A stretch of DNA of 64,000 bases from Pseudomonadota bacterium (GTDB taxonomy: Bacteria > Pseudomonadota > Alphaproteobacteria > Acetobacterales > Acetobacteraceae). This document shows, in pieces, positions 58,427 to 62,718 of this stretch. The position numbers and the translations under genes are program-made. The notes beneath the pieces are model-generated. The model did not search any database. It was not told where the DNA came from and saw only the letters and a program-made list of their open reading frames with translations. Position 1 is the stretch's first letter. Each line of letters opens with the position of its first letter. The DNA lies in NCBI GenBank assembly GCA_021798915.1, contig JAJZBM010000008.1:1-64000 (forward strand), given 5' to 3'.

Positions 58427-58996
58427 TCAGCCGACCGGGGAAGCCAGCGCCGCCACCAGCCATGCCCATGCGGCTGCCTCCCTGGGCCCGGCGGTTTTAT
58501 CGACCGCGACCCGCAAGCGGCGCATCTCCTCGGCGATGGTCGCCGGGGGCAGAAGATGGCGGCGGCTGACAAGGATCGCGGCCTCGATGACCGCGGCCTG
58601 GGCGCGGTTGAAGCCCCGGAACGGGGCGTGGCTCGCCTCGAACACGGTCTCGCAGTGAAAGCGCGGCCGGGCCTCATCCGCCTCGATCGCGACCACCCGC
58701 AATTCGGCATGGGCGAGGGCGGCGGCGAGGCGTGGCGGGCGGACATGGTCTGCGGCCAGCAGCGGAAAATCCCGCCGCCCGGTGAGGCAGCCGGCGAAAA
58801 TCCGCACGTCATCGACGTAATTCGCGACCAGTTCGGGCACCGCGCGGAGATTGGCGAGCGTCGTCGAGGGATGGAACGGCGCCGCGATCCAGCGGCCACC
58901 ACTCTCGTCGCCGGCGATCAGGCCAAGCGGCGCGAGATGCGGCGTCCCATCAGCGGCAAGCGTCGTGACGATGGTTTCACGAATGAGCGGCATCAC
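58427..58996 (-). CDS. DUF447-family protein (H4MPT-linked)
   Basis: 189 residues with a flavin-reductase-like split-barrel look: PLIRETIVTTLAADGTPHLA at the start, ANYVDDVRIFAGCL near 59, and an ECE-type FHCETVFEASHAPFRGF near 113. DUF447 members accompany H4MPT genes in methylotrophs, but their step is not known. It overlaps the previous gene by 20 bp, so it is last in a coupled run of five. Confidence 0.85.
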   Translation of the reverse strand: MMPLIRETIVTTLAADGTPHLAPLGLIAGDESGGRWIAAPFHPSTTLANLRAVPELVANYVDDVRIFAGCLTGRRDFPLLAADHVRPPRLAAALAHAELRVVAIEADEARPRFHCETVFEASHAPFRGFNRAQAAVIEAAILVSRRHLLPPATIAEEMRRLRVAVDKTAGPREAAAWAWLVAALASPVG

Positions 58997-60380
58997 GCTT
59001 GACCCTCAGCGTATGGCCGGCTTCGGCGAGCCGCGTCCGTTCCTCGCCCTCCTCGGCCATCGCAACCCCGAAGCGCAGCCCCTCGTCCTGGACATAGCGC
59101 TTGCCGAGCCGAAAGGCGATCTCGGCCTTGGCGAGTTCGGTGCCGAGATAAAACGCATGCGCGGGATCATCGGCGAGGGCGAGGGCGGGATAGCAGGAGA
59201 GCGCATCCCGGCGCACGATATGGAGGCGGTTGTTGAAGACATGGATCCCGTCCTCGGCGACACCGATGCGATAATTCTCGTCGCGCGTCGCGGCGGCGAG
59301 GGCGGCGAGATCGGCGGCGGTCTCGGTGAGCGGCACGCGATCATGGATCTGAAGCAGCGCATCGGAATAGAGCCGCGGCAGCGCGCCGTCGGCGCGGGCG
59401 GCGAACAGCATCCGCCGCGCCGCGTCATGCTCGGCGAGGGTCCGCCGCGTATGCGGGCTGACCTGCACGGTGAGCACGTTGCGAATACCGAGTTCGGAGC
59501 AGATGCCGAGCAGAATGGCGGTAACGCCGGCGGAATCGGCGTCGGTCAACTCGGTGAGATTGCCGGTCCCCATCAGCATCTCGGCGCGCGGCAGAAGCCG
59601 CCGCGTCTCATGATAGCGGGTGAGCGAGGCGCTGAGGCCGGAATGGATCGGATCGAGGATCGGATCGACGAGGAAGGGCAGCCCCATCGCCTCGGCTTTG
59701 GCGGCGGCGCGGACCAGGGAGGCGAGATCGCCATGCGGCGCCGGGATCAGGACCGGGGTCGCCCTGGTGCCGACAGCGAGGGCGAGCGTCGCCTCGGTGA
59801 GGCTGAGGAGAAAATCCGCCCCCGCGAGGGCGGCGCGGCGGAGTTCCTCGGGGTCGCCGGAATCGACGCTGACCGCGATCCCGGCACCGCGAAGATCGCT
59901 GATTTTCGCCTCGAGATCAGGAAACGCCGCACCCGGCCGGCAGCCGAGATCGATGACCCCGGCGCCTTCGGCGACGAGGGCGCGGGCGCGGGCGAGCAAC
60001 GTCTCGCGCGGCAATACGGCGGCATCGACGATTTCGGCGAACAAGCGAATATCGAAGCGCGAGAGGTCGCGCGCACCAGTGGCGAGGCCGAGAAACGCCG
60101 GCAGATCGACGATCTCGTCCGGCCCGCGCACGAAAGGCACCCCGAAATGCTCCGTCAACGCCGCGGCGTCGAGCCCGGCGCGGCCGGGGAAAATCACCCG
60201 GTCGGCATCGAGCGGCGGGCGCAACCGGCGGCGCAGGATCGCCTCGGTCATCAGCGCCGCGACCTTGACGCCGATATTGACGATTTGGACCGAAAACCTC
60301 TCGCCGAGTTCACCGGCGACCAGGCGGCGGAGCCGCGCTTCGGCGAGATGGCCGGTGAGGAGAAGAAGTTTTTCAGCCAT
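58977..60380 (-). CDS. Dihydropteroate-synthase-like protein (H4MPT-linked)
   Basis: 467 residues from ATG 60380. The middle (about 140-310) has the DHPS-type TIM barrel: LARARALVAEGAGVIDLGCR, SVDSGDPEEL, LIPAPHGD and FLVDPILDP. The rest is specific to the H4MPT-linked family. In methylotrophs and methanogens such proteins are thought to join the pterin with the arylamine in place of FolP. It overlaps its neighbours by 8 and 20 bp. Confidence 0.9.
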   Translation of the reverse strand: MAEKLLLLTGHLAEARLRRLVAGELGERFSVQIVNIGVKVAALMTEAILRRRLRPPLDADRVIFPGRAGLDAAALTEHFGVPFVRGPDEIVDLPAFLGLATGARDLSRFDIRLFAEIVDAAVLPRETLLARARALVAEGAGVIDLGCRPGAAFPDLEAKISDLRGAGIAVSVDSGDPEELRRAALAGADFLLSLTEATLALAVGTRATPVLIPAPHGDLASLVRAAAKAEAMGLPFLVDPILDPIHSGLSASLTRYHETRRLLPRAEMLMGTGNLTELTDADSAGVTAILLGICSELGIRNVLTVQVSPHTRRTLAEHDAARRMLFAARADGALPRLYSDALLQIHDRVPLTETAADLAALAAATRDENYRIGVAEDGIHVFNNRLHIVRRDALSCYPALALADDPAHAFYLGTELAKAEIAFRLGKRYVQDEGLRFGVAMAEEGEERTRLAEAGHTLRVKRDAAHS

Positions 60381-60930
60381 CACCCTGGCCGAGACCTTGC
60401 TTGCGCCGGGCGATCGCGGTCTCGAGATCGGCGAGCGACAGCGCGACCTCGGTCGCCTCGAAAGCCGCAAGCCGCGCGGTGTTTTCGAGATCGATCCGGC
60501 GCGGATAGACCTTCACCATCCCGCCAGGGGCGCGGGTTTCGAGTTCGGGGGCATTGTCGCAGGCGAACACGATGATCGGCACACGGCATTTCCCGGCCTG
60601 GCAGAAGACGTTGCTGGCCAGCGTGTCGGCGATGCCGTAGACGCATTTCGCGACCGTATTGGAGGTCGCCGGGGCCAGCACCAGGGTGTGATAAAACCCT
60701 TCATAGAAGCGCCCGACCGGGGCGGCGGAGGCGGTGGTATCGCGGAAAATACGTGCCCCCTTCGGCAGGATCAGCCGATCACGGTACATGCGCACGACCT
60801 CGGCGGCGGCCTTGCTCACGAACAGATCGACGGCGTCGAGCCCGCGGATGAGAGCGAGGCTCTCGGTGAAGAAATGCCCCGAGCCGGTGAGCGCCCAGGC
60901 CCAGCGCGGCGTTTTCGTCTCGCGCGCCAT
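60373..60930 (-). CDS. dmrB: Dihydromethanopterin reductase-like flavoprotein (DmrB/AfpA family)
   Basis: 185 residues from ATG 60930. The archaeal-flavoprotein pattern is clear: WALTGSGHFFTESLALIRGL near the start, VDLFVSKAAAEVVRMY, LVLAPATSNTVAKCVYGIAD (FMN site) and CFC-type VFCQAGKCRVP. A related enzyme from Burkholderia reduces dihydromethanopterin, the last step in H4MPT synthesis. It follows the kinase gene at 1 bp. Confidence 0.85.
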   Translation of the reverse strand: MARETKTPRWAWALTGSGHFFTESLALIRGLDAVDLFVSKAAAEVVRMYRDRLILPKGARIFRDTTASAAPVGRFYEGFYHTLVLAPATSNTVAKCVYGIADTLASNVFCQAGKCRVPIIVFACDNAPELETRAPGGMVKVYPRRIDLENTARLAAFEATEVALSLADLETAIARRKQGLGQGDG

Positions 60931-60931
60931 G

Positions 60932-61564
60932 TCAGGCGAATTGCCTCGCCACGAGCACCTGCCCGGGCAGGCGCGTGCCATCGAGCGCGCCGGCGGCGGG
61001 CAGATCGGCCGGGCCGGCGAGATGGATCGGGGGGCGGAATCCTGCCGCGAGGCCAGGAAAAAACCGATCGATGACGCCCGCCTCGGCGAGCCCGGCGAGG
61101 CTCGCCCCGGGCGCGGTGCTCACCGGCTTGATCAGGAGGAGCGGGGCCGAAAGCCGGCGCGCGAACCAGAGCGCGATCGAATCCGAAGTCACATCCCAGG
61201 ATGGCGGCAGGGTCACCTCGGCGGCCAGCATCGGCCACGGCACCAGGATGCCGATCCCCCCCGCGCCACAGATCTCGGCGATGCGATCATGGCTCGCGAC
61301 CATCGCGCAGGCGGGCGCGAGGGACGCGAGGGCGCGGCCGAACTGCGCCATCGCCAGCATCGCCATTTCATGCGCGGCGCGCTCGTCATAGCCGATCGCG
61401 GCCTGCTGGGCGCGCACGGTGTCGGCAAACGGGCCACCACCGGGGACCAGGAGTGTGCCCGGGCTCGCCGCGATCCGGGTGAGCCAGTCGCGCAGGCGCG
61501 GGTTCGCCGCCTGGCTGCCGCCGAGCTTGACGACGAGACGGACGGCAAGCGGGGCCGCGTTCAT
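60932..61564 (-). CDS. MfnE-like amino-acid-kinase-fold enzyme (furan branch of H4MPT)
   Basis: 210 residues. The amino-acid-kinase fold signatures are LVVKLGGS at residues 11-18, LLVPGGGPFAD near 39 and LLIKPVSTAPG near 147. In methanogens MfnE phosphorylates the aminomethylfuran phosphate; orthologues in methylotrophs lie in H4MPT clusters as here. It overlaps the MfnB-FolB gene by 4 bp. Confidence 0.85.
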   Translation of the reverse strand: MNAAPLAVRLVVKLGGSQAANPRLRDWLTRIAASPGTLLVPGGGPFADTVRAQQAAIGYDERAAHEMAMLAMAQFGRALASLAPACAMVASHDRIAEICGAGGIGILVPWPMLAAEVTLPPSWDVTSDSIALWFARRLSAPLLLIKPVSTAPGASLAGLAEAGVIDRFFPGLAAGFRPPIHLAGPADLPAAGALDGTRLPGQVLVARQFA

Positions 61565-62718
61565 GATACCTCCGACGCGCCCAACAGATAAGGCAGCATC
61601 GTCACCGCCGCCGCTTCCCGGGTGCGTTCGAGGGTGATGCCGACGATGCCGGTCCCGGTTTCGAGCTTTTCGACGCAGATCTCGACCTTGAGCACCCGTG
61701 GATGGGCCAGGAGCCGGGCCGCGATCCGCTCCGCCAGGGTCTCCACCAGCCCGACATGCCCGGCACCGGCGAGCATGCGGATGGTGTCGCTGATCACGTC
61801 ATAGGAAAACACGTCGCGAAGATCGGCAACCTGCCGCCGCGGCCGGGCGATCACCGCGGTCACCGCGAAACGCACCTTCTGCAACCGCGCGCGCTCATGG
61901 GCATAGACGCCGATGGCCATCGGCAGCACGAAATCGCGGAGATGGACACGGTCGGCGAGCGCCGGGTCGCTCTCCTCGGCCGGCGCATAGCCACGCGCAG
62001 CGAGCAGGCGGAAATCCACCCCGCCCGGCGCCTCATCACTGCCGAAGCCGGGGATGAGGGCGCGGACCATGGCGACATTCCCGGCCTCGATCGCACCGGC
62101 GCGGCCATGGGCGCCGCAAAGTGCGGTGCGAAAGCCGAGGAGATCGGGCGCGAGCAGCAGAAGCCGCGGAATATCGGGCAATTCCAGCCCCCCGGCGAGG
62201 CCCGCGCGCAGGCCGAGCCGGCGGCATTCGGCAACGAAGCGATCGAGCCGCGCGATATCCAGGTGATCGAGCAGCCGCCCGCCATTCTTCCCGGCGGTAT
62301 CGAGCATGGCGCCGGCGAAGCCGTGCTCGACGAGCAGCGCGAGCAGCGAAAAATCAGGGGCGCGGTCGGCGAAAAACACCGCGACCAGCTTCACCCGCGC
62401 CGCCAATGGCGCCAACCCGGCAAGAGCGGCCTCGGCCTCGCCGCCGGGGAAAATGCCGAGCTTCAGATAATCGACGCCGGTCGCGGCCATCGTTTCGGCG
62501 GCATCGCGCAGAAGGGCGGCTTGCATCGGCAGATCGCCGAGGACGGCGCTGACCGGCCGCGCGCCGGCGACCCGTGCCACACCTGCGCGCACGACGTCGG
62601 GGGCGACGGCACCGAGCGCGCCCGCCGCCGGATCCTTGAAATCGATGACATCGGCGCCGCCGGCAAGCGCGGTCACGGCTTCGTCCGCGTCCCGGACACT
62701 GGCGAGAAACCAGGTCAT
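61561..62718 (-). CDS. mfnB: (5-formylfuran-3-yl)methyl phosphate synthase fused to dihydroneopterin aldolase
   Basis: 385 residues from ATG 62718. Residues 1-235 are MfnB (DUF556): DVIDFKDPAAGALGAV with the Schiff-base Lys, VDYLKLGIFPGG, and MLDTAGKNGGRLLDHL with a second conserved Lys. Residues about 265-375 are a FolB-type dihydroneopterin aldolase: VLPMAIGVYAHERA, the Tyr of VFSYD and the catalytic-Lys region VEICVEKLETG. The fusion joins the furan branch and the pterin branch of H4MPT synthesis in one chain. First gene of the coupled run; asnB ends 123 bp upstream. Confidence 0.9.
   Translation of the reverse strand: MTWFLASVRDADEAVTALAGGADVIDFKDPAAGALGAVAPDVVRAGVARVAGARPVSAVLGDLPMQAALLRDAAETMAATGVDYLKLGIFPGGEAEAALAGLAPLAARVKLVAVFFADRAPDFSLLALLVEHGFAGAMLDTAGKNGGRLLDHLDIARLDRFVAECRRLGLRAGLAGGLELPDIPRLLLLAPDLLGFRTALCGAHGRAGAIEAGNVAMVRALIPGFGSDEAPGGVDFRLLAARGYAPAEESDPALADRVHLRDFVLPMAIGVYAHERARLQKVRFAVTAVIARPRRQVADLRDVFSYDVISDTIRMLAGAGHVGLVETLAERIAARLLAHPRVLKVEICVEKLETGTGIVGITLERTREAAAVTMLPYLLGASEVS

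Follow-up and report, generated by a model that had tools for sequence, protein, structure and literature searches.

Why would a bacterium join an enzyme of methylofuran synthesis to one of pterin synthesis in a single polypeptide? The question is raised by a five-gene operon in a 64,000-nucleotide stretch of an Acetobacteraceae genome (positions 1 to 64,000 of contig JAJZBM010000008.1, assembly GCA_021798915.1; hereafter the window), whose first gene encodes an MfnB domain followed in the same frame by a FolB (dihydroneopterin aldolase) domain. MfnB converts two molecules of glyceraldehyde-3-phosphate into 4-(hydroxymethyl)-2-furancarboxaldehyde phosphate (4-HFC-P), and FolB converts 7,8-dihydroneopterin into 6-hydroxymethyl-7,8-dihydropterin. 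Comparison of the sequences suggests that the fusion is very probably a bifunctional enzyme whose aldolase half serves folate synthesis as well, so that the gene would outlive a lost tetrahydromethanopterin (H4MPT) and methylofuran pathway. The operon itself is ordinary and was already known as the methylotroph island orf22-orf21-afpA-orf20-orf19; the novelty lies in the presence of a single FolB and in the decay, several times over, of one half of the fusion. The fusion gene and its domains are as follows.

61561 to 62718, minus strand: mfnB-folB fusion of 385 amino acids (orf22 of the archaeal-like cluster plus a C-terminal FolB domain; PF04476 and PF02152), overlapping mfnE by four bases and aligned to loci L047-L049.
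62065 to 62706, minus strand: MfnB domain, from the span of the hidden Markov model match and alignment to 4rc1 and 4u9p; equivalents of Lys27, Lys85 and Lys155 of MJ1099 present.
61657 to 61947, minus strand: FolB domain, aligned to 3v9o and 1nbu; catalytic Glu, Tyr, Glu and Lys present; sole FolB match in the genome.

Both halves exceeded their curated Pfam cut-offs, the MfnB half with 219 bits against PF04476 (4HFCP_synth; cut-off 22.4) and the FolB half with 64.1 bits against PF02152 (cut-off 31.8). The stricter NCBIfam equivalog models were not reached, neither those for MfnB (best 271.8 of 297) nor TIGR00525 for FolB (45.4 of 72.15), while the FolB domain model TIGR00526 was passed (49.6 of 45.05). 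All three MfnB lysines were found in the window protein; Lys27 and Lys85 of MJ1099 we take to be active-site residues, and Lys155 is described as such in the accessible part of a published study (PMC11365854). An AlphaFold2 model of the fusion (4 rows, predicted local distance difference test score 65.4) was not used on account of its weak FolB half. The Glu, Tyr, Glu and Lys of FolB, presumably the catalytic residues, were intact in the window protein; 89 of the 92 rows of the alignment, in which some genomes occur twice, likewise had them. The first-pass annotation had named a loss of these residues as an outcome that would speak against its reading, and no such loss was seen.

To follow the fusion beyond the window we use f1 for the window's family, f70 for another family and g223 for a genus within f70, which we tentatively take to be Acetobacteraceae-like, Beijerinckiaceae-like and Methylobacterium-like, respectively. 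MfnB was matched in 20 of the 385 class genomes, 23 of the 397 of f1 and 120 of the 298 of f70. The fusion was read in 21 of the 23 f1 carriers, the exceptions being G418 (unfused) and G685 (an apparent frameshift between the halves). Reading frames were followed in 54 of the 95 f70 carriers outside g223, and each of the 54 held a fusion, 16 of them decayed and one (G070) split over two contigs. Of 52 plasmid records with a match, 12 matched over 80% of the query or more and came without exception from Phyllobacterium or Rhizobium; one Sinorhizobium record covered 74%, spanning both halves. A scan of named genomes with the fusion protein alone returned three close relatives only. The survey proposed in the first-pass annotation therefore yielded 21 f1 genomes, 54 f70 genomes and plasmids of two genera: the MfnB-FolB fusion is not rare. 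Public records annotate it under the name of one or the other partner, and no paper on it was found among the open-licence literature searched.

In 22 genomes, 16 from f70 and 6 from f1, the fusion stands as an orphan: the 3.3 to 16 kb fetched around it hold none of the four operon partners and none of 13 other genes of one-carbon (C1) clusters. By comparison, 16 of 18 intact loci had operon partners and the remaining two had mtdB and mptG adjoining. The Lys27 equivalent was replaced or missing in 21 of the 22 orphans; in the last, G953, the contig starts past that position, which is thus unreadable, and the Lys85 equivalent is replaced. The FolB residues were retained in 21 of the 22, and Pfam detected both domains in all. 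The gene mch was present in none of the 22 orphan genomes, compared with 27 of the 29 genomes tested whose fusion has its lysines intact (G685 included despite its frameshift) and all six tested genomes with unfused MfnB (five of g223, and G418). The f70 genomes of this test were chosen by hand; the f1 set comprised every MfnB carrier found in that family (n = 23), irrespective of MfnB state, and here Lys27 was kept in 15 of 15 mch-positive genomes and lost in six of eight mch-negative ones (Fisher p 0.0003). A pterin-4a-carbinolamine dehydratase gene adjoins the orphan at four of the 18 orphan loci searched (L140, L141, L152 and L178, from three genera), a pterin context consistent with a function beyond C1 metabolism.

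Not counted among these 22, a lone decayed fusion with Pro at the Lys27 position stands beside fae on each of two Phyllobacterium plasmids (L057:8995-10113 and L058:8995-10101), where fae is the sole further C1 gene annotated within 9 kb. In strain T1293, a second plasmid holds another match of fusion length that has diverged less.

A role in folate synthesis is suggested by FolB copy number. Apart from the fused domain, no FolB match was found in the window's genome (G000), which has one FolK, on contig C46; the seven frames scanned around that FolK held neither FolB nor FolP (no genome-wide search for FolP was made). Exactly one FolB match was present in 91 of the 95 f70 carriers outside g223 (G931 excluded); two were found in G809 and G831, and none in the incomplete assemblies G925 and G991. 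The same single-copy state held for 15 of the 16 f70 orphan genomes. In nine genomes of the class with an unfused operon that includes folB on the contig, the operon FolB was the sole match, and four MfnB-free f1 relatives had one FolB each, in G256 in the same frame as FolK. Unless some unknown aldolase is present, the product of a genome's single FolB must go to both H4MPT and folate, and in G000 it very probably feeds folate too. Ten f70 genomes (G788, G828, G884, G807, G845, G874, G896, G798, G805 and G876) have a weak single FolB and neither an MfnB match nor mch; these may be fusions in which decay has left the MfnB half unrecognisable.

Decay appears to have happened repeatedly. Five genera (g399, g365, g372, g389 and g415) hold both intact and decayed fusions, and a tree of 52 fusions contained at least 11 changes between the two states, 8 of them forced by starred branches alone. 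Two decayed rows of this tree are Phyllobacterium plasmid genes of unknown mch state, and the three lysine columns were left unmasked among its 370. L047-L049 look the same as G565, G635 and G603 (equal identities) and were left out of the tree. The tree gives no direction; we infer loss from the joint absence of the lysines and of mch. In amino-acid sequence, the divergence of MfnB relative to FolB was 1.25 in decayed (24 rows) versus 0.97 in intact fusions (30 rows; p 5e-5), with rows that are related to one another and three intact duplicates, L047-L049, among them. Similarly, the mean MfnB/FolB ratio of nonsynonymous divergence (dN) was 2.27 in 16 orphan pairs versus 1.38 in 11 intact pairs, the pairs overlapping. 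The orphan MfnB half appears relaxed yet under some constraint.

We propose that the operon supplies precursors for two C1 coenzymes. MfnB, at the N-terminus of the fusion, would condense two glyceraldehyde-3-phosphates into the furan precursor of methylofuran, a branch the kinase may continue, and FolB, at the C-terminus, would cleave 7,8-dihydroneopterin to 6-hydroxymethyl-7,8-dihydropterin, feeding H4MPT and very probably folate; the dihydropteroate-synthase-like protein and the flavoprotein probably belong to the pterin branch. Since the fused FolB would carry the folate duty, lineages losing the H4MPT and methylofuran pathway would have kept the fusion gene, and since FolB is translated through the MfnB half, stops and frameshifts there would be selected against, while missense changes would be tolerated, so that lysines are lost and FolB stays intact. 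A further step, which we offer tentatively and hold to be rather doubtful, is that the fusion made an accessory C1 enzyme hard to shed, its FolB half being the only folate aldolase, and that the MfnB half persists as a folded pseudoenzyme, possibly a scaffold or sensor; if true, orphan fusions mark lost methylotrophy across the alphaproteobacteria.

Several observations weigh against a folate role that preserves the gene while MfnB decays. Several orphans retain one or two of the three MfnB lysines, the orphan of G424 has a truncated FolB half, and G809 combines an orphan fusion with a second FolB. G455 (87% complete) and G474 (79%) have intact lysines and no mch match, and G927, counted among the 27 mch-positive genomes, has Thr at the Lys155 position. 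No FolB match was found in 43 of 298 f70 genomes; these genomes live without a recognisable FolB, so being the only FolB is not proof of being essential. The genome-wide FolB count does not include the six f1 orphan genomes. Within orphan MfnB halves the motif GLAG.LE.PD.PRLL is largely retained, and omega of this half was 0.22-0.77 in orphan pairs and below 1 in all pairs. Finally, the faster divergence of MfnB is partly circular because most f70 orphans were first spotted by weak MfnB scores; the absence of mch and the retention of FolB are free of that circularity.

The constraint on MfnB could mean that the orphan half is not decaying but newly tasked, serving to scaffold the FolB oligomer, to sense a ligand or to catalyse some other aldolase chemistry. 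Its detection by Pfam in all 22 orphans, the retained motif and the low omega speak for such a task; we nevertheless consider it unlikely, as the lysine replacements differ between lineages, the alignment shows sizeable in-frame deletions in the MfnB half of G641, G860 and G862, and MfnB dN is raised relative to FolB. Moreover, full removal of MfnB needs a new start and ribosome site before FolB, so its persistence requires no new task. Less probable still is a FolB half dedicated to H4MPT, with folate made via another, unrecognised aldolase of the transaldolase type or some other replacement. The FolB-less f70 genomes indicate that replacements or losses exist, and transaldolase-type replacements have been predicted, according to the accessible part of the source (PMC1971073). 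However, an enzyme serving H4MPT alone would be expected to decay along with MfnB, whereas the orphan genomes lack mch yet nearly all keep the FolB catalytic residues, and G000 has FolK. The least probable explanation is that the purpose of the fusion is to keep the supply of furan and pterin in balance, since, although it fixes a 1:1 ratio and is kept in many mch-positive lineages, g223 and Azospirillum-type operons run the pathway with separate proteins, and the pterin probably also goes to folate, so that a 1:1 supply would not balance two coenzymes. That explanation recasts for two coenzymes the first-pass proposal that the fusion joins and balances two halves of one cofactor, which does not hold: the furan belongs to methylofuran, a coenzyme separate from H4MPT according to the accessible part of PMC8141765, and the pterin to H4MPT and probably folate.

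A bifunctional enzyme with a folate duty remains our preferred reading. The operon runs from the ATG at 62718 to the final stop at 58427, minus strand throughout, precisely the extent first assigned to it, and contains all five families of the archaeal-like island orf22-21-afpA-20-19, in order and on a single strand. Downstream of the fusion it comprises:

60932 to 61564, minus strand: MfnE-like kinase of the amino-acid-kinase fold (orf21; PF00696; NCBIfam MfnE below cut-off).
60373 to 60930, minus strand, start at 60930: AfpA/DmrB-like flavoprotein (PF02441; TIGR02700 and TIGR02699 about equal).
58977 to 60383, minus strand, start GTG at 60383 or ATG at 60380: DUF6513 and dihydropteroate-synthase-like protein (orf20; PF20123, PF14251, TIGR00284).
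58427 to 58996, minus strand, start GTG at 58996 or ATG at 58993: DUF447 protein (orf19; PF04289 and PF20766).

These assignments exceeded the curated Pfam cut-offs (AA_kinase 28.6 bits, Flavoprotein 70.6, DUF6513 69.9, DUF447_N 78.5, DUF447_C 56.1). The kinase (nearest to MfnE, 58 bits against a cut-off of 300), the flavoprotein (DmrB 88.6 of 251, AfpA 86.9 of 192) and the orf20 product (TIGR00284, 170 of 257) scored below the NCBIfam cut-offs and are therefore homologues rather than certified equivalogs; the five family names given in the first pass matched, except that its 'DmrB-like' cannot be told from AfpA. Its head-to-tail overlap holds at three junctions, those of mfnB-folB/mfnE (4 bases), afpA/orf20 (8-11 bases) and orf20/orf19 (17-20 bases, both ranges set by start codon choice), whereas mfnE and afpA lie 1 base apart. 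A chance arrangement is excluded because the gene order recurs in loci with proteins about 40-75% identical. The flanking genes, one for an asparagine synthase upstream on the same strand and one for polysaccharide biosynthesis downstream, are not C1 genes.

The predicted H4MPT-linked formaldehyde pathway is borne out by the rest of the genome (61 contigs totalling 3.09 Mb, completeness 100%), where each of the genes that had been out of view was found, contrary to the possibility that no C1 genes exist elsewhere. Contig C22 holds mch, an orfY-like gene, mtdB and mptG together with fhcB, A, D and C; contig C40 has fae, orf7 and myfB (orf5), and C37 a second fae. NCBIfam cut-offs were passed by mch, fae, fhcA, fhcC and fhcD, while fhcB and mptG fell below the equivalog level (mptG above the family-level TIGR00144) and mtdB was called solely from 67% identity to an annotated Phyllobacterium protein. 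The two fae copies (L051:224-799 and L052:8474-9079) are identical from ITKVSVGES to the end and differ in their N-termini, one lying at a contig edge. G517, of the window's genus, has mch and no MfnB match despite 99% completeness, perhaps through an assembly gap or another furan enzyme.

Known systems place the fusion among several layouts. In Methylosinus trichosporium OB3b, orf19-orf20-afpA-orf21-orf22 is one of five H4MPT islands, separate, as in the window, from mch-orf5-orf7-fae-orf17, fhcCDAB, orf9-mtdB and pcbD-mptG; the accessible part of the description mentions no fusion (PMC3615186). Orf22 and Orf21 of Methylorubrum extorquens are likewise homologues of MfnB and MfnE in the methylofuran branch, and the words 'fusion' and 'aldolase' do not occur in the text of that paper (PMC8141765). 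FolB-FolK fusions also join FolB to another pathway enzyme, there the next one of folate synthesis, whereas the partner in the window comes from another coenzyme's pathway (PMC1971073, accessible part). The Phyllobacterium zundukense plasmid NZ_CP017942.1 carries the fusion (WP_100002479.1; 47% identity to that of the window) with the genes ordered as in the window and surrounded by methanol dehydrogenase, pqq, fae, mch, mtdB and mptG, and the record names the fusion simply (5-formylfuran-3-yl)methyl phosphate synthase; the plasmid's MfnE-like kinase (L055:13203-13841, WP_100002477.1) is labelled 'dihydroneopterin aldolase', apparently a misplaced name.

Two unfused layouts were seen. Azospirillum sp. 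TSH58 and several genomes of the class have the same families in a single operon with separate genes, folB first and mfnB last (folB-kinase-DUF6513-DUF447-mfnB in TSH58, where no flavoprotein gene is annotated). In the six g223 genomes read (L040, L163-L167), MfnB comes first and stands alone, with folB outside the operon. The g223 FolBs examined form a clade of their own, far from the FolBs of fusions and operons; the fused ones lie on one side of a branch with a support of only 73% in a tree of few columns, and a single origin of the fusion seems likely from these sequences. Stand-alone MfnB genes without operon families within the 16 kb fetched were seen at L027, L030, L032, L035 and L037. 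G931 (L149:7498-8256), first taken as a decayed fusion, was dropped because its MfnB-like protein is of another type without FolB; that genome lacks mch and, by eye, Glu replaces Lys27.

Through one chain, two C1 coenzymes and probably folate are linked. The repeated decay, counted at least eight times on the tree, amounts to a natural experiment in which the two parts of a presumed bifunctional enzyme are separated. An MfnB annotation alone is no marker of methylotrophy, and the fusion would explain the seeming lack of stand-alone folB in many alphaproteobacteria, in which the loss of methylotrophy would be readable from one gene.

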